From: Bacteroidia bacterium
GTDB taxonomy: Bacteria > Bacteroidota > Bacteroidia > Cytophagales > Cyclobacteriaceae
Assembly: GCA_030425425.1 (NCBI GenBank)
Contig: JAUIAO010000006.1
Coordinates: forward strand, 115,188 to 179,187
Direction: 5' to 3'
Length of the DNA: 64,000 bases
The stretch's first letter is position 1, and each line of letters opens with the position of its first letter. The position numbers and the translations under genes were made by a program. Below the pieces are notes generated by a model that made no database searches, was not told where the DNA came from, and saw only the letters and a list, made by a program, of their open reading frames with translations. Positions 6,631 through 23,773 of this stretch are shown here, one piece after another.

Positions 6631-6990
6631 ATGAGTGTACAATTCATCGACCACAAAGGAGTAAGCATTCTTTACACAGACCTGTCCAAAAAATCCAAAG
6701 ACGAAAATATGGAGGTAATGGAGCAAGCCAAGAAAATAATTGGGATGAGGCCTGAAAAATCAGTTCTGGTCATATTGAATGTAGAGGGAATGAGATACAG
6801 TAAGGAATTTCTAGACAAGATGAAGGCCATAGGAAAGGCAAATGAACCATATGTGAAAGCAACAGCCATTTTAGGTCTGACTGCAGTCACTAAATTAATC
6901 GCCAAAGGTGTGGCGCAATTTACAGGCAGAAAATCAGGCTTTTTTGACGGAGAACAGGAAGCTCTTGATTGGCTCGTAGAGCAATACTAA
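6631..6990 (+). CDS. Small STAS/SpoIIAA-like protein of unknown function
   Basis: A 119-residue soluble protein that I cannot assign to a named family. The alternating strand/helix pattern (VQFIDHKGVSILYTDLS; KSVLVILNVEGMRYSKEFLDKMK; YVKATAILGLTAVTKLIAKGVAQF; FFDGEQEALDWLVEQY) resembles STAS/SpoIIAA-like folds, in which the VLVILNVEGMRYS strand-loop would be the usual phosphorylation or binding loop. The C-terminal DGEQEALDWLVEQ helix is typical of SpoIIAA-like proteins. It is divergent from the BLUF gene. A regulatory role is inference. Confidence 0.65.
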   Translation: MSVQFIDHKGVSILYTDLSKKSKDENMEVMEQAKKIIGMRPEKSVLVILNVEGMRYSKEFLDKMKAIGKANEPYVKATAILGLTAVTKLIAKGVAQFTGRKSGFFDGEQEALDWLVEQY

Positions 6991-7210
6991 AATTGAATAT
7001 TCTACCCCAATTCGATTCATACTTTTTCAACCTGACAGTACTCCAACCAAAGTAAATTGCTATTTGCTATAATCCAATATTGTTTATAAGTCCTATTTGA
7101 TTTTATGAGAAAATGGCAATTGCCAAACTGGCTATAAAGATTGTCACTATAGCTGCGTTTTTGAAATTCCTCTAATCAATTTTAAAAAAGGAAATAACAT
7201 CCGAAAAATC

Positions 7211-7232
7211 AAAAAGCTGTCCAAATCAATGA
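7211..7232. repeat. 22-bp exact repeat, first copy (terminator-like)
   Basis: The 22 bases at 7211-7232 recur exactly at 7556-7577, where they form the left arm and loop of the aconitase terminator. Here the right arm is degraded (GATAAGAACAGCC), so the hairpin is weaker. It lies just past the 3' end of the small lipoprotein gene on the minus strand and may be its terminator. Confidence 0.7.
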
Positions 7233-7283
7233 TAAGAACAGCCTTCTTAGCAATAAAAATCAAATAATAGGGAACAAAGTCAT

Positions 7284-7484
7284 TTAAGGTTCTGGGACAA
7301 TTCGGCAATCATAACCATTATCCTCCATATCTCTTTTCCAATCTCTAGCTTCTCCTGAGGTATCGAAACAGGCTCCTCTAGTGCTTGAACTAGATGAAGT
7401 GGATTTTTCACATTCATAGCATTTTGAACAACTCGATATGAATAACACAACAGCAAAAAATGACACAATTTTGATCTTTCTCAC
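7284..7484 (-). CDS. Small cysteine-rich lipoprotein
   Basis: A 66-residue product with a lipoprotein signal: MRKIKIVSFFAVVLFISSC, with the lipobox ISSC and Cys19 as the likely lipidated residue. The mature part holds four more cysteines (CYEC, GACFD, YDC), a serine run and a WKRDMEDNGYDC segment, compatible with a small disulfide-bonded domain. I do not recognise a family. The gene stands between the STAS-like gene and the aconitase and is flanked by two copies of a terminator-like 22-bp repeat. It could be a short orphan; the signal peptide and lipobox are the main reason to accept it. Confidence 0.65.
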   Translation of the reverse strand: MRKIKIVSFFAVVLFISSCSKCYECEKSTSSSSSTRGACFDTSGEARDWKRDMEDNGYDCRIVPEP

Positions 7485-7553
7485 AAAAAGTAGTTACACA
7501 TGAATAATATTTAAAGTTATATGAAAAGTCTAACAATAAGATCTACAGTTCAC

Positions 7554-7585
7554 AAAAAAAGCTGTCCAAATCAATGAACAGCTTT
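7554..7585 (-). terminator. Intrinsic terminator after aconitase
   Basis: Perfect 8-bp stem AAAGCTGT / ACAGCTTT with a 12-nt loop, followed on the minus strand by a T-run. It is 25 nt past the aconitase stop. Its left arm and loop are the second copy of the 22-bp repeat. Confidence 0.8.
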
Positions 7586-7609
7586 CAAATTTTAACATCT
7601 CAGGAATGA

Positions 7610-9877
7610 TTATCCCTCATTCTGCTTTTTGATCAGGTTCAATGCGGAACCAGCTTTGAACCACTCTACTTGTCCGGCGTTATAAGTATGATTTACTTTA
7701 ATCGCATCGGTAGTACCATTGGCATGATTGATTTCTATGGTGAGTGATTTGCCCGGTGCAAAATCTGTCAAATCCACAAAATCAAAAGTATCATCCTCCT
7801 GTATCAGATCATAATCATTCTCATTATCAAATGTCAAAGCAAGCATTCCCTGCTTTTTCAGATTGGTTTCATGAATTCTTGCAAATGATTTTACCAAAAC
7901 AGCTCTGACACCAAGATGACGAGGCTGCATAGCGGCGTGCTCTCTTGAAGATCCCTCACCATAATTATGATCACCTACAACAATTGTTGGTATACCTTCG
8001 GCTTTATATGCTCGCTGAACATCTGGTACACCACCAAATTCTCCGGTTAGCTGATTTTTCACCTTATCAGTCTCCCCATTGAAGGCATTCACAGCTCCGG
8101 TGAGCGTATTATTCGAGATATTATCAAGATGACCTCTGAATCTCAACCATGGTCCTGCCATAGAGATATGATCTGTAGTACATTTCCCCTGAGCTTTGAT
8201 GAGCAGTTTCGCACCCGTGATATTTTTCCCATCCCAAGGATCAAAACCCTCAAGCAATTGTAGACGCTTAGAATCTGATTTTACAACAACCTCCACATCA
8301 GACCCATCTGCCGCCGGAGCTACATAACCCGAATCTTCAACATCAAATCCCTTTTCTGGAAGCTCCCAACCAGTAGGTGGATCCAATTTCACTTGCTCAC
8401 CCTTATCATTGGTCAGAGTGTCAGTAATTGGGTTGAAACCCAAATCGCCAGAAATAGCTATAGCCGCAACCATTTCAGGGGAAGTTACAAAGGCATGAGT
8501 ATTTGGATTACCATCAGCTCGTTTTGCAAAATTTCTATTGAAAGAATGAACGATGGTGTTTTTTTCTTTCTTATCAGCACCGGCTCTGTCCCACTGACCG
8601 ATACAAGGTCCACAGGCATTTGTGAATATTTTCGTGCCTAATTTTTCAAAGGATTCCAATAATCCATCTCTCTCTACAGTAAACCTTACCTGCTCTGAAC
8701 CTGGATTTATCCCAAAATCCGCTTTAGGTTTTAAACCTTTTTCCACAGCCTGTCTGGCTATCGATTCGGCACGTGAAAGATCTTCATATGAGGAGTTAGT
8801 ACACGATCCTATAAGCCCCCATTCTACTTTCGTAGGCCAGTCGTTTTCAGCAGCTTTTTCTCTCATTTCTGCTATTGGTGTAGCCAGATCCGGAGTAAAA
8901 GGACCGTTTAAATGTGGAGAAAGTGTAGAAAGATCAATCTCAATCACCTGGTCAAAATATTTTTCTGGATTAGCATAAACTTCATCATCTCCGGTGAGAT
9001 GTTCTTTCACTCCATTGGCCAAATCCGCCACCTCGTCTCTGCCCGTAGCTCTGAGGTATCTTTCCATAGACTCATCATACCCGAATGTGGAAGTGGTTGC
9101 ACCGATTTCTGCTCCCATATTACAGATAGTTCCTTTACCTGTCGCCGACATACTTCGCGCACCTTCACCAAAATACTCCACGATCGCTCCCGTTCCCCCT
9201 TTTACAGTAAGAATACCAGCTACCTTCAGAATTACATCTTTTGGTGCCGTCCAACCATTGAGCTTACCAGTCAGCTTCACTCCTATTAACTTAGGAAATT
9301 TAAGCTCCCATGCCATTCCAGCCATTACATCCACGGCATCAGCACCTCCTACACCTACGGCAACCATACCAAGACCACCTGCGTTCACAGTATGTGAGTC
9401 GGTACCGATCATCATACCTCCTGGAAATGCATAGTTCTCAAGTACCACCTGATGGATGATTCCACCACCTGGTTTCCAAAAACCAATCCCATATTTATTA
9501 GAAACAGATTCCAGAAAGTTGAATACCTCGTTTGAGGTGTTTAGAGCATTTTGTAAATCGGCTGCTGCTCCGATTTTTGCCTGGATCAGGTGATCACAGT
9601 GAACAGTAGTGGGTACTGCCACATTATCCTTTCCAGCTTGCATAAATTGTAGCAGGGCCATTTGCGCTGTAGCGTCCTGACAGGCTATTCTGTCAGGAGC
9701 AAAATCTACATAAGACTCTCCACGTTTGTATGCTTCAGTAGGCTCACCTTCATACAGGTGGCTGTATAATATCTTCTCAGATAAGGTCAGCGGTTTACCG
9801 GTTATTTCCCTCGCTTTGTTTACTCTTTCGCCTATGCTTTCATAGACTTTTTTGATCATATCAATATCAAATGCCAT
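7610..9877 (-). CDS. acn: Aconitate hydratase, mitochondrial type
   Basis: Interconverts citrate and isocitrate in the TCA cycle using a [4Fe-4S] cluster. The 755-residue length and N-terminus ([21 protein letters not shown]) match the mitochondrial-type aconitase found in Bacteroidetes. Cluster ligand motifs are [11 protein letters not shown] and [11 protein letters not shown]. The swivel domain at the C-terminus holds [20 protein letters not shown]. It lies downstream of acnB on the same strand but is separated by a strong terminator, so it probably has its own promoter. Having this type together with AcnB gives the cell two non-homologous-length enzymes for the same step. Confidence 0.97.
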
Positions 9878-9974
9878 AGGAATATCTTTTTATTTTCTGA
9901 TTTACATCCAATTTAATATTAAAACTAAGTACTTAACGATAAGTTTAATAAAGAAAAAAATACCTATTGACTAT

Positions 9975-10004
9975 AAAAAAGCCCGAATCGAATGATTCGG
10001 GCTT
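9975..10004 (-). terminator. Intrinsic terminator after acnB
   Basis: Perfect stem GCCCGAATC-GAAT-GATTCGGGC extended by AA/TT, with TTTTTTATAG following on the minus strand. Confidence 0.9.
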
Positions 10005-10029
10005 AAATATTTATGATTTGATCGTTCCC

Positions 10030-12810
10030 TTAAGAGTTACTTAGCAATTTGCTGGAAGGTTTGAACTTTGTAAGATCAATGCCTTCTACTGCACTTTCAT
10101 ATTCTGCTAGTTTTGGTGTTCTTCCCAAAATGGTAGAGAGCACCACTACCGGTGTAGAAGAAAGCAGAGATTCCCCTTTTTTCTCCTGAGAATCTTTTAC
10201 AACCCTTCCCTGAAATAGTCGGGTCGAAGTAGCCATTACGGTATCCCCAGGCTCAGCTTTCTCCTGATTACCCATACATAAGTTACACCCTGGGCGCTCC
10301 AGGTATAACATATTTTCATATTTCGTTCGTGCTGCAGCTTTTGGGTTCGTGTCGTCAAACTCGAATCCAGAGTATTTTTGAAGCACTTCCCAGTCTCCTT
10401 CAGCCTTCAATTCATCGACAATATTGTAAGTAGGAGGAGCTACAACTAATGGAGCTTTGAATTCTACCTTACCTTGTTGCTTCTCAACGTTTTTAAGCAT
10501 TTGAGCAAGTATTTTCATGTCTCCTTTATGAACCATACAAGAACCTACAAATCCCAGATCTACTGATTTTTCTCCTCCATAATATGACAGAGGTCGGATG
10601 GTATCATGAGTATATCGCTTGGAAACGTCCTCATTATTCACGTCCGGATCTGCAATCATTGGCTCCACAATCTCATCCAAATCGACTACTACCTCAGCAT
10701 AGTATTTTGCATTAGCATCAGGAGTAATGGCTGGTTTTTCGCCAGATCGGATCTCATCAATTCGATTATTAGCCTTGTCTATCAAGCCTTGGAGTACCTG
10801 CTTTTCATTATCCATACCCTTCTCAATCATGATCTGGATTCTGGATTTAGCGATTTCCAGGGATTCTATCAGAGTCTCGTCTTCAGAGATACAAATCGAT
10901 GCTTTAGCTTTCATTTCAGCAGTCCAATCAGTAAACGTAAATGCCTGATCAGCTGTCAAAGTACCAATATGTACTTCAATAACTCTACCTTGAAAAACAT
11001 TTTCACCACTGAATTGCTTCAACATTTGCTGCTGTGTAGCATGAACTACATCACGAAAATCCATGTATGATTTCATCTGTCCTTTGAAGGTAACCTTCAC
11101 AGAATCAGGAATTGGCATAGAAGCCTCTCCTGTAGCCAATGCTAGCGCCACAGTACCCGAGTCTGCACCAAAAGCTACTCCTTTTGACATTCTGGTATGA
11201 GAATCACCACCAATGATGATGGCCCAGTCGTCAATGGTAATATCATTTAATACCTTATGAATCACATCTGTCATAGCGTGATACCCATCTTTTGGATCAC
11301 GCGCTGTGATGAGCCCAAAGTCGTTCATAAACTTCATCAACTTTGGAATATTAGCTTGGGCCTTCTTATCCCAAACTGAAGCTGTGTGACAACCGGACTG
11401 ATATGCACCATCCACAATCGGAGAGATAGTAGTAGCCGCCATAGATTCCAGTTCCTGTGAAGTCATTAAACCAGTAGTGTCCTGAGAACCTACAATGTTT
11501 ACCTCTACGCGCACATCAGAACCAGCATGTAATGTTTTACCAGGAGTAGTTCCAACCGCATTTCTATTAAAAATCTTTTCTACAGCCGTGAGGCCCTGTC
11601 CTTCAATAGATATTTCTTTGGATGGTGCAAATACTTCAGGTGCAGTAATACCTAATGTTTGAGCCGCGAATGTTTGTAATTTCTTCCCAAATACTACTGC
11701 GTATGAACCCCCTGCTTTGATAAATTCCAGTTTCTGTGGAGTCAACGATGATGAAATATCTATCAATTCCTGATCTCCGTTGTAAAGTTTTTTGGTTTTT
11801 GTATTGATGGTCAAAACCGTACCTGTTGCCACAGAATATGCCTCTTCTAAGACAGGATCACCATTCTCGTCTACTACTACATTGCCCTCAGCATCGGTTT
11901 TTTTCACCCAGTTTTTGAGATCTATCCCGATTCCTCCGGTTACTCCAACTGTAGTAAGGAATATTGGAGAGATTCCATTTGTTCCTGCAATGATCGGTGC
12001 AATATTGATAAACGGAACATATGGACTTGCCTGTATTCCTGTCCAAAGTGCTACATTATTTACTCCTGACATCCGTGAGGATCCCACGCCCATAGTACCT
12101 TTCTCAGCGATCAGCATCACACGCTTATCAGGATGCTGCTCTTTTAATGCTTTTAGCTCTTCTTGTTTCTCCTTATTGTGTTCGAAAATACATTGACCGT
12201 GGAGTTCGCGATCAGACCTGGAATGTGCATCAGCTCCAGGTGAAAGCAAATCGGTAGATATATCTCCCTCTCCAGCAATGAATGTAACAACTTTGATCTC
12301 CTCTTGCACATCCGGGAGCTGAGTGAAAAACTCTGCATTCGCGTAGCTCTCTAGCAATTCCCTTGCTATTGTATTACCTGTTTCAAAGGCCTCTTTTAAT
12401 CGTGCATAATCCGCATCATACAAAAACACCTGAGTTTTTAACACCTTGGCAGATTCATTCGCTATTTCAGCATCATCACCCAGTGCCAAATCCAGCAATA
12501 CTTCTATAGAAGGGCCTCCTTTCATGTGAGAAAGTAATTCAAAAGCAAAAGAAGGTGTGATTTCTTCTACACTCTGCTCACCTAAAATGATTTCTTTCAG
12601 AAACCTGGCCTTAACACCCGCAGCGCTGGTAGTACCAGGCAAAGTATTGTAAATAAAAAAGTTCAGTGAATCCGCTCTGTTTGGATTGTTGGTATCTTTG
12701 ATAAGCTCAATTATTTCACTTAACAATTCAGCACCGTCTATTGGCTTAGGATGAAGCCCTTGCGCTTTTCGCTCTTCGATTTCCGCTAGGTAATCATTAT
12801 ACAGGTTCAT
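10030..12810 (-). CDS. acnB: Bifunctional aconitate hydratase 2 / 2-methylisocitrate dehydratase
   Basis: AcnB-type aconitase of 926 residues with the HEAT-like N-terminal domain (residues 1-160) peculiar to this type, then the swivel domain (about 165-380) and catalytic core. Cluster-binding motifs are GSCMVHKGD and PGCNLCMGNQ near the C-terminus, with the substrate-contact segment SGCHTASVWDKKAQ. It can also dehydrate 2-methylisocitrate in propionate breakdown, and AcnB proteins can bind mRNA when the cluster is lost; both are family knowledge. It lies directly upstream of the mitochondrial-type aconitase. A candidate promoter lies about 85 nt upstream and a strong terminator follows. Confidence 0.97.
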   Translation of the reverse strand: MNLYNDYLAEIEERKAQGLHPKPIDGAELLSEIIELIKDTNNPNRADSLNFFIYNTLPGTTSAAGVKARFLKEIILGEQSVEEITPSFAFELLSHMKGGPSIEVLLDLALGDDAEIANESAKVLKTQVFLYDADYARLKEAFETGNTIARELLESYANAEFFTQLPDVQEEIKVVTFIAGEGDISTDLLSPGADAHSRSDRELHGQCIFEHNKEKQEELKALKEQHPDKRVMLIAEKGTMGVGSSRMSGVNNVALWTGIQASPYVPFINIAPIIAGTNGISPIFLTTVGVTGGIGIDLKNWVKKTDAEGNVVVDENGDPVLEEAYSVATGTVLTINTKTKKLYNGDQELIDISSSLTPQKLEFIKAGGSYAVVFGKKLQTFAAQTLGITAPEVFAPSKEISIEGQGLTAVEKIFNRNAVGTTPGKTLHAGSDVRVEVNIVGSQDTTGLMTSQELESMAATTISPIVDGAYQSGCHTASVWDKKAQANIPKLMKFMNDFGLITARDPKDGYHAMTDVIHKVLNDITIDDWAIIIGGDSHTRMSKGVAFGADSGTVALALATGEASMPIPDSVKVTFKGQMKSYMDFRDVVHATQQQMLKQFSGENVFQGRVIEVHIGTLTADQAFTFTDWTAEMKAKASICISEDETLIESLEIAKSRIQIMIEKGMDNEKQVLQGLIDKANNRIDEIRSGEKPAITPDANAKYYAEVVVDLDEIVEPMIADPDVNNEDVSKRYTHDTIRPLSYYGGEKSVDLGFVGSCMVHKGDMKILAQMLKNVEKQQGKVEFKAPLVVAPPTYNIVDELKAEGDWEVLQKYSGFEFDDTNPKAAARTKYENMLYLERPGCNLCMGNQEKAEPGDTVMATSTRLFQGRVVKDSQEKKGESLLSSTPVVVLSTILGRTPKLAEYESAVEGIDLTKFKPSSKLLSNS

Positions 12811-18972: not shown

Positions 18973-20472
18973 ATGGCAACTCATAAAATTACCTTTGAGG
19001 AAAAAGAGATAACTACTCACGAAAACGAGCTTGTTTTAGACACATTGCTGAGGAATAACATATCAGTAAAGTTTTCCTGTCGGAATGGCACCTGCATGAC
19101 CTGCATGCTCAAGGTTACTGAAGGCACTCCCACTCCCGTCAGTCAGGCAGGAATTGCTCCTAATCTGAAAGAGAAAAACTATTTCAAGGCTTGTAAATGT
19201 ATACCTTCGGAAGACTTGAAAATTTCGAGACCTGAAGACGAGGACTATCTTTATGAAGCACATATTATCAGCCTTGACAAGCTGGATTCAAGCTCTTTCA
19301 AAATAGTTATAGAATCTTCTGAAGGGTTTGACTTTCACGCAGGGCAGCAAATGAAAGTACGTAGAAAAAGCTATCAAAATGCAGTCCCTTTCACTATTAC
19401 TAGTCTTCCTTATGAACCGTATATGGAGCTTGCATATTATGTGAAAGAGAATAGTGAAGAATTGAAAGCTCTAGAAAAGCTCAAAACAGGTGACAAGATT
19501 TTCGTGAACTCACCATCCGGTAATTTTCATTTTGACCCAAAAGAGGATAAGCCACTTTTAATTCTAACGAAAAATAACACTCTACATATTGTAAAAAGTG
19601 TTGTCAATGAAGCTATTAATCTATGGAGCTATGAAAAAACAATAGAAATCCTGCAAATAGGCAATGAGGATCAATTAGCCTTCGAAGATTTCCATTTGCC
19701 TACTCAGGTTAAGGTAGATTCTATTCCAGAATCTGATTTTTTCAACAACCCTAAGAATTACATTTCAAAATACTTATTACATTCTATCTATCTGGCCCTG
19801 AATGAGAGTAAAAATGAGATAATGCTTAGTACATTCTATTCATTAGGAGCACAATCCATTAGAGTCCTTAATCTATCGCCAAAAGTAGAAATCGAAAGCA
19901 TTTTTGAAACACAGAATTTTCCTCAACCTCCAGCTGAACCCGACCTTGAGCTTTGGGAATACTTGAACGAAAACAACCTGGTGCAAAAGATATTAACAGA
20001 GTTTTATGATATCGTATTCGAAGATGAGCGATTGGGTACGTTCTTTTCTCATGTTACCAAACAGCGATTGATTGAAAAACAATACAATTATCTTTTTGAG
20101 CAATTCACAGGAGAGCCAGTCTACTTTGGTCCAGACATGAGAAACGTTCACCACTGGATGGTGATCTCAGAAGATTTATTTGATTATAGGTCTGGAATTC
20201 TGGAGACTGTAATGCGGCAGAACCATCTTCCAGAAGCATACTTAAAAAAATGGATGGAAATAGAGGAACGAGTAAAAGAAAGAATAGTAAAAAGTAAACC
20301 CTGGAAAAGAATAATTAACAATGAATTGGTTGATCTGGAACAAATAGAAAAAACCAAGCTAGATTTCGGGGGAGTATGTGACAACTGCCACGAAGAAATA
20401 TTACCCGGAGAAGAAGTGATATATCATGTGAGACTAGGAAAAGTTTTTTGCCAAAAATGTCAGGGTCTTTGA
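18973..20472 (+). CDS. Fusion: 2Fe-2S ferredoxin, FNR-like domain, truncated haemoglobin, zinc ribbon
   Basis: A 499-residue soluble protein with four domains. (1) Residues 1-90: plant-type [2Fe-2S] ferredoxin with Cys36, Cys41, Cys44 and Cys74. (2) About 93-315: a ferredoxin-reductase-like fold with AVPFTITSLP and KTGDKIFVNSPSG, but the FAD-binding Arg of RxYS and the NAD(P) GxGxxP loop are missing, so cofactor binding is doubtful. (3) About 326-445: truncated haemoglobin; Tyr345, Leu366, Gln370 and His393 have exactly the spacing of B10, E7, E11 and F8 in Mycobacterium TrHbN (Tyr33, Leu54, Gln58, His81). (4) 466-499: zinc ribbon with Cys469, Cys472, Cys493 and Cys496. The TrHbN pocket suggests NO or O2 chemistry fed by the ferredoxin, an analogue of flavohaemoglobin (inference). 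Confidence 0.9.
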   Translation: MATHKITFEEKEITTHENELVLDTLLRNNISVKFSCRNGTCMTCMLKVTEGTPTPVSQAGIAPNLKEKNYFKACKCIPSEDLKISRPEDEDYLYEAHIISLDKLDSSSFKIVIESSEGFDFHAGQQMKVRRKSYQNAVPFTITSLPYEPYMELAYYVKENSEELKALEKLKTGDKIFVNSPSGNFHFDPKEDKPLLILTKNNTLHIVKSVVNEAINLWSYEKTIEILQIGNEDQLAFEDFHLPTQVKVDSIPESDFFNNPKNYISKYLLHSIYLALNESKNEIMLSTFYSLGAQSIRVLNLSPKVEIESIFETQNFPQPPAEPDLELWEYLNENNLVQKILTEFYDIVFEDERLGTFFSHVTKQRLIEKQYNYLFEQFTGEPVYFGPDMRNVHHWMVISEDLFDYRSGILETVMRQNHLPEAYLKKWMEIEERVKERIVKSKPWKRIINNELVDLEQIEKTKLDFGGVCDNCHEEILPGEEVIYHVRLGKVFCQKCQGL

Positions 20473-20687: not shown

Positions 20688-21038
20688 ATGAACACCTTAG
20701 AAAAGGCGTGCAAAGACTATGATAGTAACATCAAGACTAATGGTATTTGCGTCATCAACACCAACACTGGAGAAATTGAATTCTCAGAGAGTTTTACAGA
20801 TGAAACCAATCAAATTCTGAACAACAGCCTGTCCTCTGGCAAACTCAAGGATTTTAACAGTCAGTTCAATTCAATTTTCTACAAAAGAGGTTTTCCTTCG
20901 ATTATCAGAATTAAACATGATCATTACAGTGAATTCATCAAATTCTTGGATGTAAACCATATCATGTACTTCATACAAGAAAACACTTCAATCAACTATC
21001 CAAAAATTAAAATACAACTGACCAAACTTGCCGCCTAG
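20688..21038 (+). CDS. Unknown small protein at the head of the SpoIIE operon
   Basis: A 116-residue protein starting at the ATG at 20688; an earlier TTG at 20616 would add 24 residues without any conserved-looking feature and was not used. No signal or membrane segment. Strand-rich N-terminus (NGICVINTNTGEIEFSESF) and a helix-loop pattern later (HDHYSEFIKFLDVNHIMYFIQEN). I do not recognise it. It ends 17 nt before the SpoIIE phosphatase, on the same strand, and is probably the first gene of that operon. It could be a phosphatase substrate or adaptor (inference from position only). Confidence 0.7.
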   Translation: MNTLEKACKDYDSNIKTNGICVINTNTGEIEFSESFTDETNQILNNSLSSGKLKDFNSQFNSIFYKRGFPSIIRIKHDHYSEFIKFLDVNHIMYFIQENTSINYPKIKIQLTKLAA

Positions 21039-21055: not shown

Positions 21056-22228
21056 ATGATTGGAACCGAATCTAACAAGATTTCATATATCTGTAGAGAA
21101 CTGAAAGCCAAGCACCCTGGCATTAAACTCACTATGGCTTATGAATGGAATAAACACATCGAAATCTATCATAATGAAATAGAAGAGGATATAAATTTCA
21201 ATGCTCTACGTATGTTTTGCGTAAAGAATATTGGTCCTAACAGTGAATCAAGCATGGATGAAGAAAGCATCCAGGTAGATTATGATGAATTCGGGACTCT
21301 TGTTTTCTTTAGGTTTGAGCAAAAGCGATGGTTAATCATTGCTACAGACAAAGCTAGTTTTCCGGTTATCAATTTGGCAATAAAGGACTTAGATAAATCA
21401 GCTGTTGAGTTTGACTTGAAGGAGATCGAGGCGAAGGAGATTGAAGAGCTAGAAACTACTCACAATTTTGTGACTACTGACGAAGAGGAGGAAGTACTTC
21501 TGGAAGATCCGAAGCTGATGGCTGCCAGAAGATTACAACTGAGTATCTTACCAGATGTCAAATTGTTGGACAATTATTTCCAAAAGCATTTCTTGTACTT
21601 TCAGCCGGAGGATGTTTTAAGTGGTGACTTCTACTGGATCAAAGATTTTGAAAAAAGTTTATATCTGGTGGTAGCGGATTGTACCGGGCATAGCATGGAG
21701 GGTGCCCTATCTACTATGACAGTCAGCACGATTTTGAACCAAAGAATTGCTGCTGGTAAAAAACCTCAAGAAATTATAGAAGACATCTATGAAGACATCA
21801 AAAAAAGCAGTACTCTGCAAGACGAAGGGTATTCCATAGGTGTAGAATTAGCAATTTGTAGATTTGAGAAGGAATCACACCAGGTAGATATTGTGACAAG
21901 CGGGGTTCCTGTACTATATATCGAGGGTGAAAAACATCATCACCTTCTAAGGATTAAAGGAACACAGGATCCGTCGTATAAGGACTTAAAATTGGATCAT
22001 ATTAATTTATATGCTGAACAAGGACATAAGCTGGTATTATTTACTGATGGCTTATCTGATCAATTTGATAGTAACGACAAGAAAAAATTAGGTAACGCCG
22101 GAGTGAAAAAAATGTTTATGTCGATGAACGGCAACTTTTCTTTCAGTAGATTTATTCAAGACTTAGACGACTGGAGGGGAGCAACTAAACCAATGGATGA
22201 CATTACTGTCATGGCCATAGAAATGTAA
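21056..22228 (+). CDS. SpoIIE family PP2C serine/threonine phosphatase
   Basis: A 390-residue cytoplasmic protein. The C-terminal half (about 155-390) is a SpoIIE/PP2C phosphatase with its metal-binding aspartates: LSGDFYWI (Asp191), VVADCTGHSMEG (Asp208), the LFTDGLSDQ loop and MDDITVMAIE at the end. The preceding ARRLQLSILPD is the usual linker. Residues 1-150 form an unrecognised alpha/beta domain with a long acidic helix; no GAF, PAS or receiver domain is visible. SpoIIE-type enzymes dephosphorylate anti-sigma antagonists and similar STAS proteins. No STAS or HATPase kinase is adjacent; the next gene is a Roadblock-like protein 26 nt downstream. Confidence 0.92.
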   Translation: MIGTESNKISYICRELKAKHPGIKLTMAYEWNKHIEIYHNEIEEDINFNALRMFCVKNIGPNSESSMDEESIQVDYDEFGTLVFFRFEQKRWLIIATDKASFPVINLAIKDLDKSAVEFDLKEIEAKEIEELETTHNFVTTDEEEEVLLEDPKLMAARRLQLSILPDVKLLDNYFQKHFLYFQPEDVLSGDFYWIKDFEKSLYLVVADCTGHSMEGALSTMTVSTILNQRIAAGKKPQEIIEDIYEDIKKSSTLQDEGYSIGVELAICRFEKESHQVDIVTSGVPVLYIEGEKHHHLLRIKGTQDPSYKDLKLDHINLYAEQGHKLVLFTDGLSDQFDSNDKKKLGNAGVKKMFMSMNGNFSFSRFIQDLDDWRGATKPMDDITVMAIEM

Positions 22229-22254: not shown

Positions 22255-22650
22255 ATGGATTTAAAAGAAGCAATCGGCGCAGCAATTAAGGAAGTACCAA
22301 AAGCTGTAGCAGCAGGGGTAGTAGACATGGACTCAGGTATGCTACTAGACATTAAAACTACTTCCAGTCACCCGAATGAGGTTTTTGACCTTTTGGCTGC
22401 CGCTACCAAGGATATGTACGAAGGAGAAAACGTAACCAATGTGGAGAAGATTTTCAAAAAGGCTAGAGGAGTAAAAACAGATGAAAGATATTTTCAGGAG
22501 TTTGTGGTTTTCTCAACAAACCTTGTTCATTACTTCACACGTATTCCTTCAAAACCAGGAACTGTTTTCGCAGTGGTTTGTCAGGGAGATGCGAACGTAG
22601 GTTTGATTTTGGTTAAAGCGAGAGAGATTGCCAGAGCACTCAAATTCTGA
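22255..22650 (+). CDS. Roadblock/LC7-like protein
   Basis: A 131-residue protein. The pattern VPKAVAAGVVDMDSGMLLDIKTT (residues 14-36), a central helix and VHYFTRIPSKPGTVFAVVCQGDANVGLILVKAREIARAL at the end fits the Roadblock/LC7 (longin-like) fold, whose bacterial members include MglB, a GTPase-activating partner of MglA. No small GTPase gene is in this operon; instead a P-loop ATPase starts inside its last codons. The assignment is from fold pattern and is moderately certain. Confidence 0.72.
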   Translation: MDLKEAIGAAIKEVPKAVAAGVVDMDSGMLLDIKTTSSHPNEVFDLLAAATKDMYEGENVTNVEKIFKKARGVKTDERYFQEFVVFSTNLVHYFTRIPSKPGTVFAVVCQGDANVGLILVKAREIARALKF

Positions 22651-23317
22651 TAAGTATACTTATCAAATCACTTGTAGGATCGATGATAAGACTATCCTTG
22701 ATTCTATCAATATTTCGATATATACGAAAAACATCTTAGTTATTATTGGACCAGGAGGGAGTGGGAAATCTACCCTCCTGTCTATTTTTGAAGGGTATTA
22801 CAAAGAACATTGTGAAACTTCGCATAAAACCACACCATTTCCACCAGAGCAGACAGCCACACTAGCCCAGACCTCAAAACTTTCTTATATATTTTCTTAT
22901 TTGCTGTCAGGAGTAGCAGATCCGGAAGTGGCGATTAAGCACTACTGGCAGGGAACAAAGGTGAAAGATCTATTATTAACCAACATAGACACTCCGCCTG
23001 ATGAGCTTCCAGAATGGCTAAAACGTCTTTTCATTATTACTGATTTCATGGTACGTAATGAGGATAAAGAATTCTGGCTATTGGATGAACCCGAACAGCA
23101 AATGGGAGATCACATTCACCATCTTGCAAAACTCCTGATGGAGCAAAAAAAGAATAAAACTATCATCGTGGTAACACACAATATGGCGTTCACAGAGCTC
23201 ATAGCTGACCATGTTTTGTACATACATTATGGTAATCAACGAGCTTTTTTAACTTCTGAAGAGTTCTTTTCTTCTGAAGATGAGCGTATTAAATATATCA
23301 TTAAAATGGGATGCTAA
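22628..23317 (+). CDS. ABC-type ATPase domain protein lacking the LSGGQ signature
   Basis: A 229-residue P-loop ATPase. Walker A is GPGGSGKST (Lys47), Walker B is FWLLDEP (Asp153, Glu154) and the H-loop is VVTHN (His184). The ABC signature LSGGQ, expected before Walker B, is replaced by a PPDELPEWLKRL segment, and no permease gene is near, so it is probably not a transporter subunit. No ATG lies before the P-loop; a TTG at 22628 is the best start and overlaps the Roadblock gene by 23 nt, implying translational coupling. The next gene follows its stop with no gap. A role as ATP-dependent switch in the operon is inference. Confidence 0.82.
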   Translation: MPEHSNSDKYTYQITCRIDDKTILDSINISIYTKNILVIIGPGGSGKSTLLSIFEGYYKEHCETSHKTTPFPPEQTATLAQTSKLSYIFSYLLSGVADPEVAIKHYWQGTKVKDLLLTNIDTPPDELPEWLKRLFIITDFMVRNEDKEFWLLDEPEQQMGDHIHHLAKLLMEQKKNKTIIVVTHNMAFTELIADHVLYIHYGNQRAFLTSEEFFSSEDERIKYIIKMGC

Positions 23318-23773
23318 ATGATCAAAGGATTTAACTGGATACTACCAAACCAATTAGCTGGCTCAGGACGACCAGGGTTATACAATGAGGCTGAGGAAGA
23401 CATTGAGTTTATTCAGGAGTTCGGTTTCAATAAGGTGATCTCTCTTACTGAAGACGCATTGGAACCAATATTTTATGACAATGATTTTGAGGTGATTCAC
23501 TTCCCTATTTCAGACATGTACGTTCCAAGGTTACAACCCACTCAAGAGCTATGCACGCAGTTGAAAAAAGACATTCAGAATGGGCAGTCCATTCTTGTTC
23601 ATTGTAAAGCCGGACTGGGAAGAACCGGAACGATAGAAGCATGTATTCTTGTGGAACTGGGTCATACCGGTGATGATGCCATAGTAGAAGTAAGAAAAAA
23701 GAACTCCTGGGCTATCCAGAACTCTATTCAGGAAGGTTTCATTCGTGATTATCACAAGTTCATTCATAAGTAA
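23318..23773 (+). CDS. Dual-specificity protein phosphatase (cysteine-based)
   Basis: A 151-residue cysteine-dependent phosphatase. The P-loop VHCKAGLGRTGT holds the nucleophile Cys96 and Arg102 (CX5R); Asp66 in PISDMYVPRL is the likely general acid. Length and the N-terminal FNWILPNQLAGSGRPG resemble compact DSP/CDKN3-like and bacterial phosphoinositide-phosphatase-like members. It is the last gene of the SpoIIE-Roadblock-ATPase operon and starts directly after the ATPase stop. The operon thus holds two unrelated phosphatases. A bidirectional terminator follows. Confidence 0.92.
   Translation: MIKGFNWILPNQLAGSGRPGLYNEAEEDIEFIQEFGFNKVISLTEDALEPIFYDNDFEVIHFPISDMYVPRLQPTQELCTQLKKDIQNGQSILVHCKAGLGRTGTIEACILVELGHTGDDAIVEVRKKNSWAIQNSIQEGFIRDYHKFIHK

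Follow-up and report, generated by a model that had tools for sequence, protein, structure and literature searches.

What role is served by a bacterial protein in which a ferredoxin, a reductase-like domain devoid of cofactor signatures, a truncated globin, and a cysteine-rich tail are joined in one chain, and from where would its haem receive electrons? The question is raised by a gene located at 18973–20472 (+) of the window, i.e., the whole 64-kb stretch of DNA analyzed here. An ORF check gave exactly these limits and one unbroken frame of 499 amino acids, and the gene is present as a single copy in its own genome of 5.85 Mb. An earlier reading of the sequence alone (the sequence-only reading) had proposed a four-part fusion. 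The frame, the Pfam matches to Fer2 and Bac_globin, the match to Fer2-FNR models, the family of relatives, and the structural models agreed on such a fusion in one 499-residue chain. A chance or frameshift artefact was ruled out by the single open frame, the conserved domains, and the existence of relatives.

Domain Architecture and Globin Pocket of the Fusion Protein

The [2Fe-2S] ferredoxin domain spans residues 1–90 (18973–19242, +). Pfam Fer2 was detected at residues 10–78 (E = 1.8e-11, above the curated cut-off), PDB ferredoxins matched this N-terminal domain, and its cysteines (Cys36, Cys41, Cys44, and Cys74) were conserved across the family. It is followed by a reductase-like domain at residues 93–305 (19249–19887, +), which, as judged by the model and by residue comparison, retained the fold but not the signatures for FAD and NAD(P). 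The group-1 truncated globin at residues 322–442 (19936–20298, +) was recognized by alignment, by the model, and by Pfam Bac_globin at residues 329–432 (E = 3.5e-8, above the curated cut-off). The C-terminal module at residues 443–499 (20299–20469, +) was delineated by family alignment and the model. It is likely, going by its sequence, a metal-binding module of the CxxC…CxxC type, which could be a zinc ribbon or a different treble-clef/Cys4 fold.

The model of the globin-tail portion (pLDDT 81) matched group-1 truncated haemoglobins with a TM to target of 0.78–0.79 (1dlw and 3aq5), and the globin fold that the sequence-only reading had expected in this region was thus recovered. Profile alignment with Tetrahymena TrHbN (3aq5) was ungapped over the pocket and paired Tyr25 with Tyr345, Gln46 with Leu366, Gln50 with Gln370, and His73 with His393, in agreement with the exact TrHbN spacing that had been claimed. 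We take these residues of 3aq5 to be B10, E7, E11, and F8, respectively, and the window residues are assigned to the same positions. The hallmarks of TrHbN, a 2/2 fold with His F8 as the proximal ligand plus Tyr B10 and Gln E11, were found in the window globin by structure match and alignment. The pocket is of the TrHbN type and would bind haem. Tyr345, Gln370, His393, and the tail cysteines Cys469, Cys472, Cys493, and Cys496, all of them already picked out in the sequence-only reading, were invariant in all 13 aligned family members; His485 of the tail was likewise family-invariant, and position E7 was occupied by Leu or Ala.

The AlphaFold model of the full chain (mean pLDDT 72, pTM 0.47) is of moderate confidence, at which the arrangement of the domains is not readable; the ferredoxin and FNR fold was retained in it. 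The closest PDB structures to the ferredoxin-FNR part were the carbazole dioxygenase ferredoxin reductase (7c3a), T4moF (4wqm), BenC (1krh), and GcoB (5ogx).

State and Origin of the Reductase-Like Domain

The loss of the FAD arginine and the NAD(P) glycine loop, which had been suspected from the sequence, was borne out by comparison with the family, as RSYS is replaced by VPFT, GTGTG by TKNNT, and CG by AL. Residues 7–233 matched Fer2-FNR models (PRK05713, E = 6.6e-21, far below the cut-off of that model), and the reductase region gave only sub-threshold Pfam matches to FAD domains. The fold and the Fer2 cysteines of a Fer2-FAD-NAD reductase are present in the window copy and the FAD/NAD signatures are absent, all three domains being found in eight full relatives. 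The window copy kept 6 of the 17 residues invariant in these eight relatives in the FAD part and 5 of 22 in the NAD part; the corresponding values were 35 of 42 for the globin, 11 of 14 for Fer2, and 9 of 11 for the tail. The reductase shared 16–20% identity with those of the relatives (46% between phyla among the other members), and the similarity of Fer2, globin, and tail to the relatives was about that observed between phyla.

In the tree, the window reductase sat on a long branch; next to it was a Bacteroidota FNR in which a similar PFTxTxLP motif is present and the Arg is missing. Owing to this grouping, independent acquisition from a Bacteroidota flavoreductase-like protein is possible on sequence grounds; decay from the family reductase is unproven. 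Since the Bacteroidota neighbor likewise has no Arg, the missing FAD Arg alone is no proof of flavin loss, and the absence of the NAD loop and of the CG motif is the stronger indication. As the window copy has no NAD(P) loop, whether decayed or acquired, electrons would have to come from outside, and we infer the ferredoxin domain to be their natural entry point. Such an external supply through the ferredoxin, also envisaged in the sequence-only reading, is favored by two Bacteroidota relatives which consist of ferredoxin, globin, and tail without a reductase.

Distribution of the Family and Comparison With Known Systems

Scanning of ∼85,000 species genomes with a globin-tail alignment and two short peptide patterns, which sets a lower bound, revealed at least 16 loci with the globin-tail, scattered over at least seven bacterial phyla or classes. 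Most of the relatives are MAGs. Full four-part members of 511–537 amino acids were found in Gammaproteobacteria, Rhodobacteraceae, Acidobacteriota, and Nitrospira, in the order ferredoxin, FAD domain (RSYS-type), NAD domain (GTGTG-type, with CG), globin, and tail. Fer2, FAD_binding_6, and NAD_binding_1 with intact motifs were present in one chain in eight relatives, and the reductase part of one relative (L043) had GcoB (5ogx, E = 3.4e-45) as its top PDB sequence match. The two Bacteroidota relatives without reductase, UBA6059 (L048) and L052, measure 289 and 294 amino acids; because they keep Fer2, globin, and tail, the ferredoxin and globin are the parts held by selection. A planctomycete (L049, Planctomycetota) and a myxobacterium (L054, Myxococcota) possess the globin-tail only. 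L052 lies on the same contig as G003, a genome of the window's genus. The public record of this contig (PBTY01000081) is titled "Rickettsiales bacterium"; probably, the title is wrong or the bin is mixed.

A search for the same architecture in other Cytophagia had been suggested. It was found in 1 of the 391 sampled genomes of the window's order and in several other phyla, which rules out a Cytophagia-specific invention. A search for plasmid carriage of the fusion gave no match.

Flavohaemoglobin (Hmp, NO dioxygenase) similarly combines a globin and an FNR-type reductase in one chain, and NAD(P)H-driven O2/NO chemistry is plausible in the reductase-intact relatives. However, the family globin is a C-terminal 2/2 group-1 truncated haemoglobin as opposed to the N-terminal 3/3 globin of Hmp, and the family adds a ferredoxin domain and a Cys4 tail. 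The C-terminal intact FAD/NAD reductase of flavohaemoglobins was found neither in the window copy, in which the reductase is internal and without FAD/NAD signatures, nor in the relatives, in which it is intact but upstream of the globin. The proposed flavohaemoglobin-like enzyme of a different build is a better description of the reductase-intact relatives than of the window copy. The N-terminal order of three domains is that of MmoC/BenC/GcoB-type reductases (Fer2-FAD-NAD), which serve a separate oxygenase, whereas the fusion carries its own haem partner and metal tail.

Truncated haemoglobins paired with FNR-family reductases are known from the nitrate reductase-2/2HbN (NR2-2/2HbN) fusion of Heterosigma akashiwo and the glbN-ferredoxin reductase operon of Legionella (PMC3820574); these differ in partner domains, order, and phyla, and no [2Fe-2S] ferredoxin domain, tail, or signaling cassette is described there. 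HGbRL of Methylacidiphilum (PMC4476040) also associates a globin with a module of the kind that regulates small GTPases, but it is a 3/3 globin fused directly to Roadblock/LC7, without Fer2, FNR, or tail. A 2006 census lists flavohaemoglobins and globin-coupled sensors as the chimeric globins, the globin usually being at the N-terminus (PMC1457004). As had been supposed, no published description of the fusion architecture or of its gene cassette was found in open-access full text, subscription literature being outside the search.

Genomic Context of the Fusion Gene

Five genes follow the fusion gene on its strand, with gaps of ≤27 bp between them. The gap separating the fusion gene from them is ∼215 bp, and a shared transcript is therefore only putative; a promoter scan gave matches no more than chance. 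The first gene (20688–21038, +), between the fusion and SpoIIE genes, codes for a 116-aa protein of no recognized family, for which no convincing relative was found. An H-NOX-like nature of this protein was unsupported, as its HNOB-like score was only weak and it did not resemble the H-NOX that this genome encodes. It is followed by a SpoIIE/PP2C-type phosphatase of 390 aa (21056–22228, +; Pfam SpoIIE, E = 3.7e-17), a 131-aa protein (22255–22650, +) serving as the cassette marker, a soluble ABC-type ATPase without permease (22628–23317, +; Pfam), and a dual-specificity/tyrosine phosphatase (DSP) of 151 aa (23318–23773, +). The DSP was assigned from its sequence, which contains the motif HCKAGLGRTG, and its homologues match PTP-SAK/Tc-R-P/DSPc models. 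The ABC-type ATPase is fused to DSP in Gammaproteobacteria and Planctomycetota. Neither a GTPase nor a recognizable NO-metabolism gene was found in the window's own cassette. The sole signal of the 131-aa protein was a weak MAPKK1_Int score (E = 0.013). A roadblock identity was considered but found no support, the resemblance being a pattern seen by eye; Pfam, PDB, and hhalign comparisons gave no significant match to Robl_LC7 or to roadblock proteins of known structure.

The cassette is arranged differently in other lineages. G003 has PAS-SpoIIE, 131-aa protein, ABC, DSP, ferredoxin-globin-tail, and PAS-SpoIIE, in this order. In Gammaproteobacteria, a ∼388-aa protein without Pfam match, a Ras/MglA-like GTPase (Pfam Ras, E = 1.1e-7; MglA 3t12 among its PDB matches; DAR motif), ABC-DSP as a single chain, the 131-aa homologue, and a CxxCxxCC protein precede the four-part fusion. 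The planctomycete order is DUF4388 protein, ABC-DSP, 131-aa homologue, 3/3 globin, ABC1 kinase, and globin-tail; the 3/3 globin (PF00042, E = 9e-17; L049, 7106–7513, +) directly follows the 131-aa gene. The DSP and 131-aa genes adjoin the fusion or lie within ∼7 kb of it in Rhodobacteraceae, and 131-aa homologues are ∼9 kb from the globin-tail gene in the myxobacterium. The cassette is on a separate contig in three holders, i.e., Acidobacteriota (L039), Nitrospira (L045), and UBA6059 (L048).

The gammaproteobacterial arrangement is reminiscent of the Group 3 MglA systems of beta/gamma-Proteobacteria, which comprise an RR-like/wHTH protein, an MglA with an unusual G5 (DAR), and one or two MglB (PMC4316618). 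The likeness lies in the DAR Ras/MglA-like GTPase, the ∼388-aa protein, and two Robl_LC7 proteins, the latter seen beside the cassette in G442 only. However, no globin, ABC-DSP, or ferredoxin gene features in the description of Group 3, and the window's cassette differs from it in having no GTPase.

The window genome harbors a second locus of the marker family (L038; G000:C70:33000-50000), in which 6893–11297 (-) includes an H-NOX (HNOB, E = 2e-25), a homologue of the 131-aa protein with 29% identity, and two SpoIIE-like phosphatases, with a histidine kinase alongside; here, a different gas-binding haem protein adjoins the same marker family.

Co-occurrence of the Globin-Tail Gene and the 131-aa Protein

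The 131-aa protein was found in all nine outside genomes with the globin-tail gene and is 45–68% identical in all holders. Among 59 relatives of the window genome, it was present only in the two holders, G000 (the window genome) and G003, and in none of the other 57; among the 391 genomes of the window's order, it was found in G000 only. ABC-ATPase and mostly DSP-phosphatase genes accompany it in all tested holders, usually nearby. In the gammaproteobacterial order, it occurred in 7/7 genomes with the globin-tail gene vs. 1/17 others (p = 2e-5), and in Rhodobacterales in 3/3 vs. 10/195 (p = 2e-4), both by Fisher's test, which ignores phylogeny. The gammaproteobacterial exception, G442, has an intact cassette followed by a stop-bearing Fer2 remnant. 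This remnant (L121, G442:C150, 8616–8860) lies between the two Robl_LC7 genes and is apparently a leftover of the fusion gene. The three Rhodobacterales holders contain the three closest matches to the 131-aa protein, and the other ten contain more distant homologues. Pairwise distances of globin-tail and 131-aa protein were correlated (r = 0.57–0.76); shared ancestry inflates this correlation as well as the Fisher p values, which denote association and not mechanism. It therefore follows from the counts that the 131-aa family has a somewhat broader distribution than the globin gene, and the globin gene was never seen without the 131-aa protein.

One of the ten Rhodobacterales genomes that have the 131-aa protein but not the fusion carries its homologue (50% identity) among several large genes that, by inspection, resemble those of dynamin-family GTPases (L118, 5278–13932).

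Proposed Function of the Fusion Protein

The family appears to be an undescribed group of multi-domain globins, which combine an MmoC/BenC/GcoB-type reductase (ferredoxin-FAD-NAD) with a TrHbN globin and a Cys4 tail. In full members, to which most of the family belongs, electrons would pass from NAD(P)H through FAD and [2Fe-2S] to haem, and haem held ferrous would bind O2 and react with NO. The protein would probably act as an NO dioxygenase or as a sensor enzyme reactive toward O2/NO. In the window copy, because the flavin path would be dead, an external reductase would have to charge the ferredoxin domain, from which haem would be reduced. The candidate partners are the 131-aa protein, the ABC ATPase, the DSP phosphatase, and the SpoIIE phosphatase or Ras/MglA-like GTPase. 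The fusion would most likely provide this cassette with the haem/redox state or shield it from NO, whether by detoxifying, by signaling the state of its haem, or by doing both. We place at even odds the reading that the fusion is an O2/NO-reactive haem electron-transfer enzyme that serves the GTPase/phosphatase cassette or feeds its haem/redox state into it; the NO or O2 chemistry together with a functional link to the cassette is held at about one half. Since the gene sits in a conserved signaling cassette, sensing or regulation and plain NO/O2 chemistry are equally likely roles.

A stand-alone NO dioxygenase that detoxifies NO in place of flavohaemoglobin, with the signaling neighbors regulating its expression or being bystanders, is unlikely. 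The complete reductase chain of eight relatives agrees with it, as does the Tyr B10/Gln E11 pocket, which is tied to NO dioxygenation in M. tuberculosis TrHbN (PMC3820574); this pair would also suit O2 storage or sensing. None of 11 holder genomes gave a match across both halves of canonical flavohaemoglobin, and in one host (G421) a Cu nitrite reductase, a source of NO, scored above the cut-off of the one model used (NirK); together, these lend mild support to NO. However, most holders, including the window's genome, gave no nitrite reductase with this NirK model, and the globin-tail and its co-occurrence with the cassette survive in Bacteroidota, Planctomycetota, and Myxococcota members that have no reductase.

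Somewhat less probable is a sensor without turnover, in which haem would report O2, NO, or redox state via the Cys4 tail to the 131-aa/ABC-DSP/SpoIIE or GTPase module and the electron chain would only reset haem to ferrous. The conserved linkage to phosphatases, ATPase, and GTPase, the globin-tail-only members, and the tail cysteines that are never lost are consistent with this, as are the other gas-binding haem proteins beside the marker family (3/3 globin in L049 and H-NOX in the paralogous locus) and the globin-roadblock fusion of Methylacidiphilum (PMC4476040). However, a dedicated NADH-FAD-FeS chain would be a high price for just resetting haem, none of the fused domains is known as an output, and the roadblock tests of the 131-aa protein came out negative. 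That the window copy is a decaying leftover without haem function, as its lost FAD/NAD motifs might suggest, is highly improbable given its open frame, the 35 of 42 family-invariant globin residues and all tail and Fer2 cysteines that it keeps, and the intact adjoining cassette.

The electron-transfer enzyme coupled to the cassette may belong to a new gas/redox signaling system spread over at least seven bacterial phyla or classes, a proposal to which we give a little less than an even chance. Its input would be a self-reducing TrHbN protein and its switch an ABC-DSP/131-aa module driving a small GTPase or SpoIIE phosphatase, with the Bacteroidota branch using an outside donor in place of the built-in reductase. 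If true, it would represent a new globin oxidoreductase architecture of a build unrelated to flavohaemoglobin and would tie haem gas chemistry to bacterial small-GTPase and phosphatase signaling, for which HGbRL was the only isolated precedent found. The family would then offer a natural series, from full through reductase-dead and reductase-less to globin-only members, in which the role of each domain can be tested. Near the fusion gene of two lineages, GGDEF-EAL (c-di-GMP) genes were also observed (L040, 6168–8243; L045, 5035–8058).
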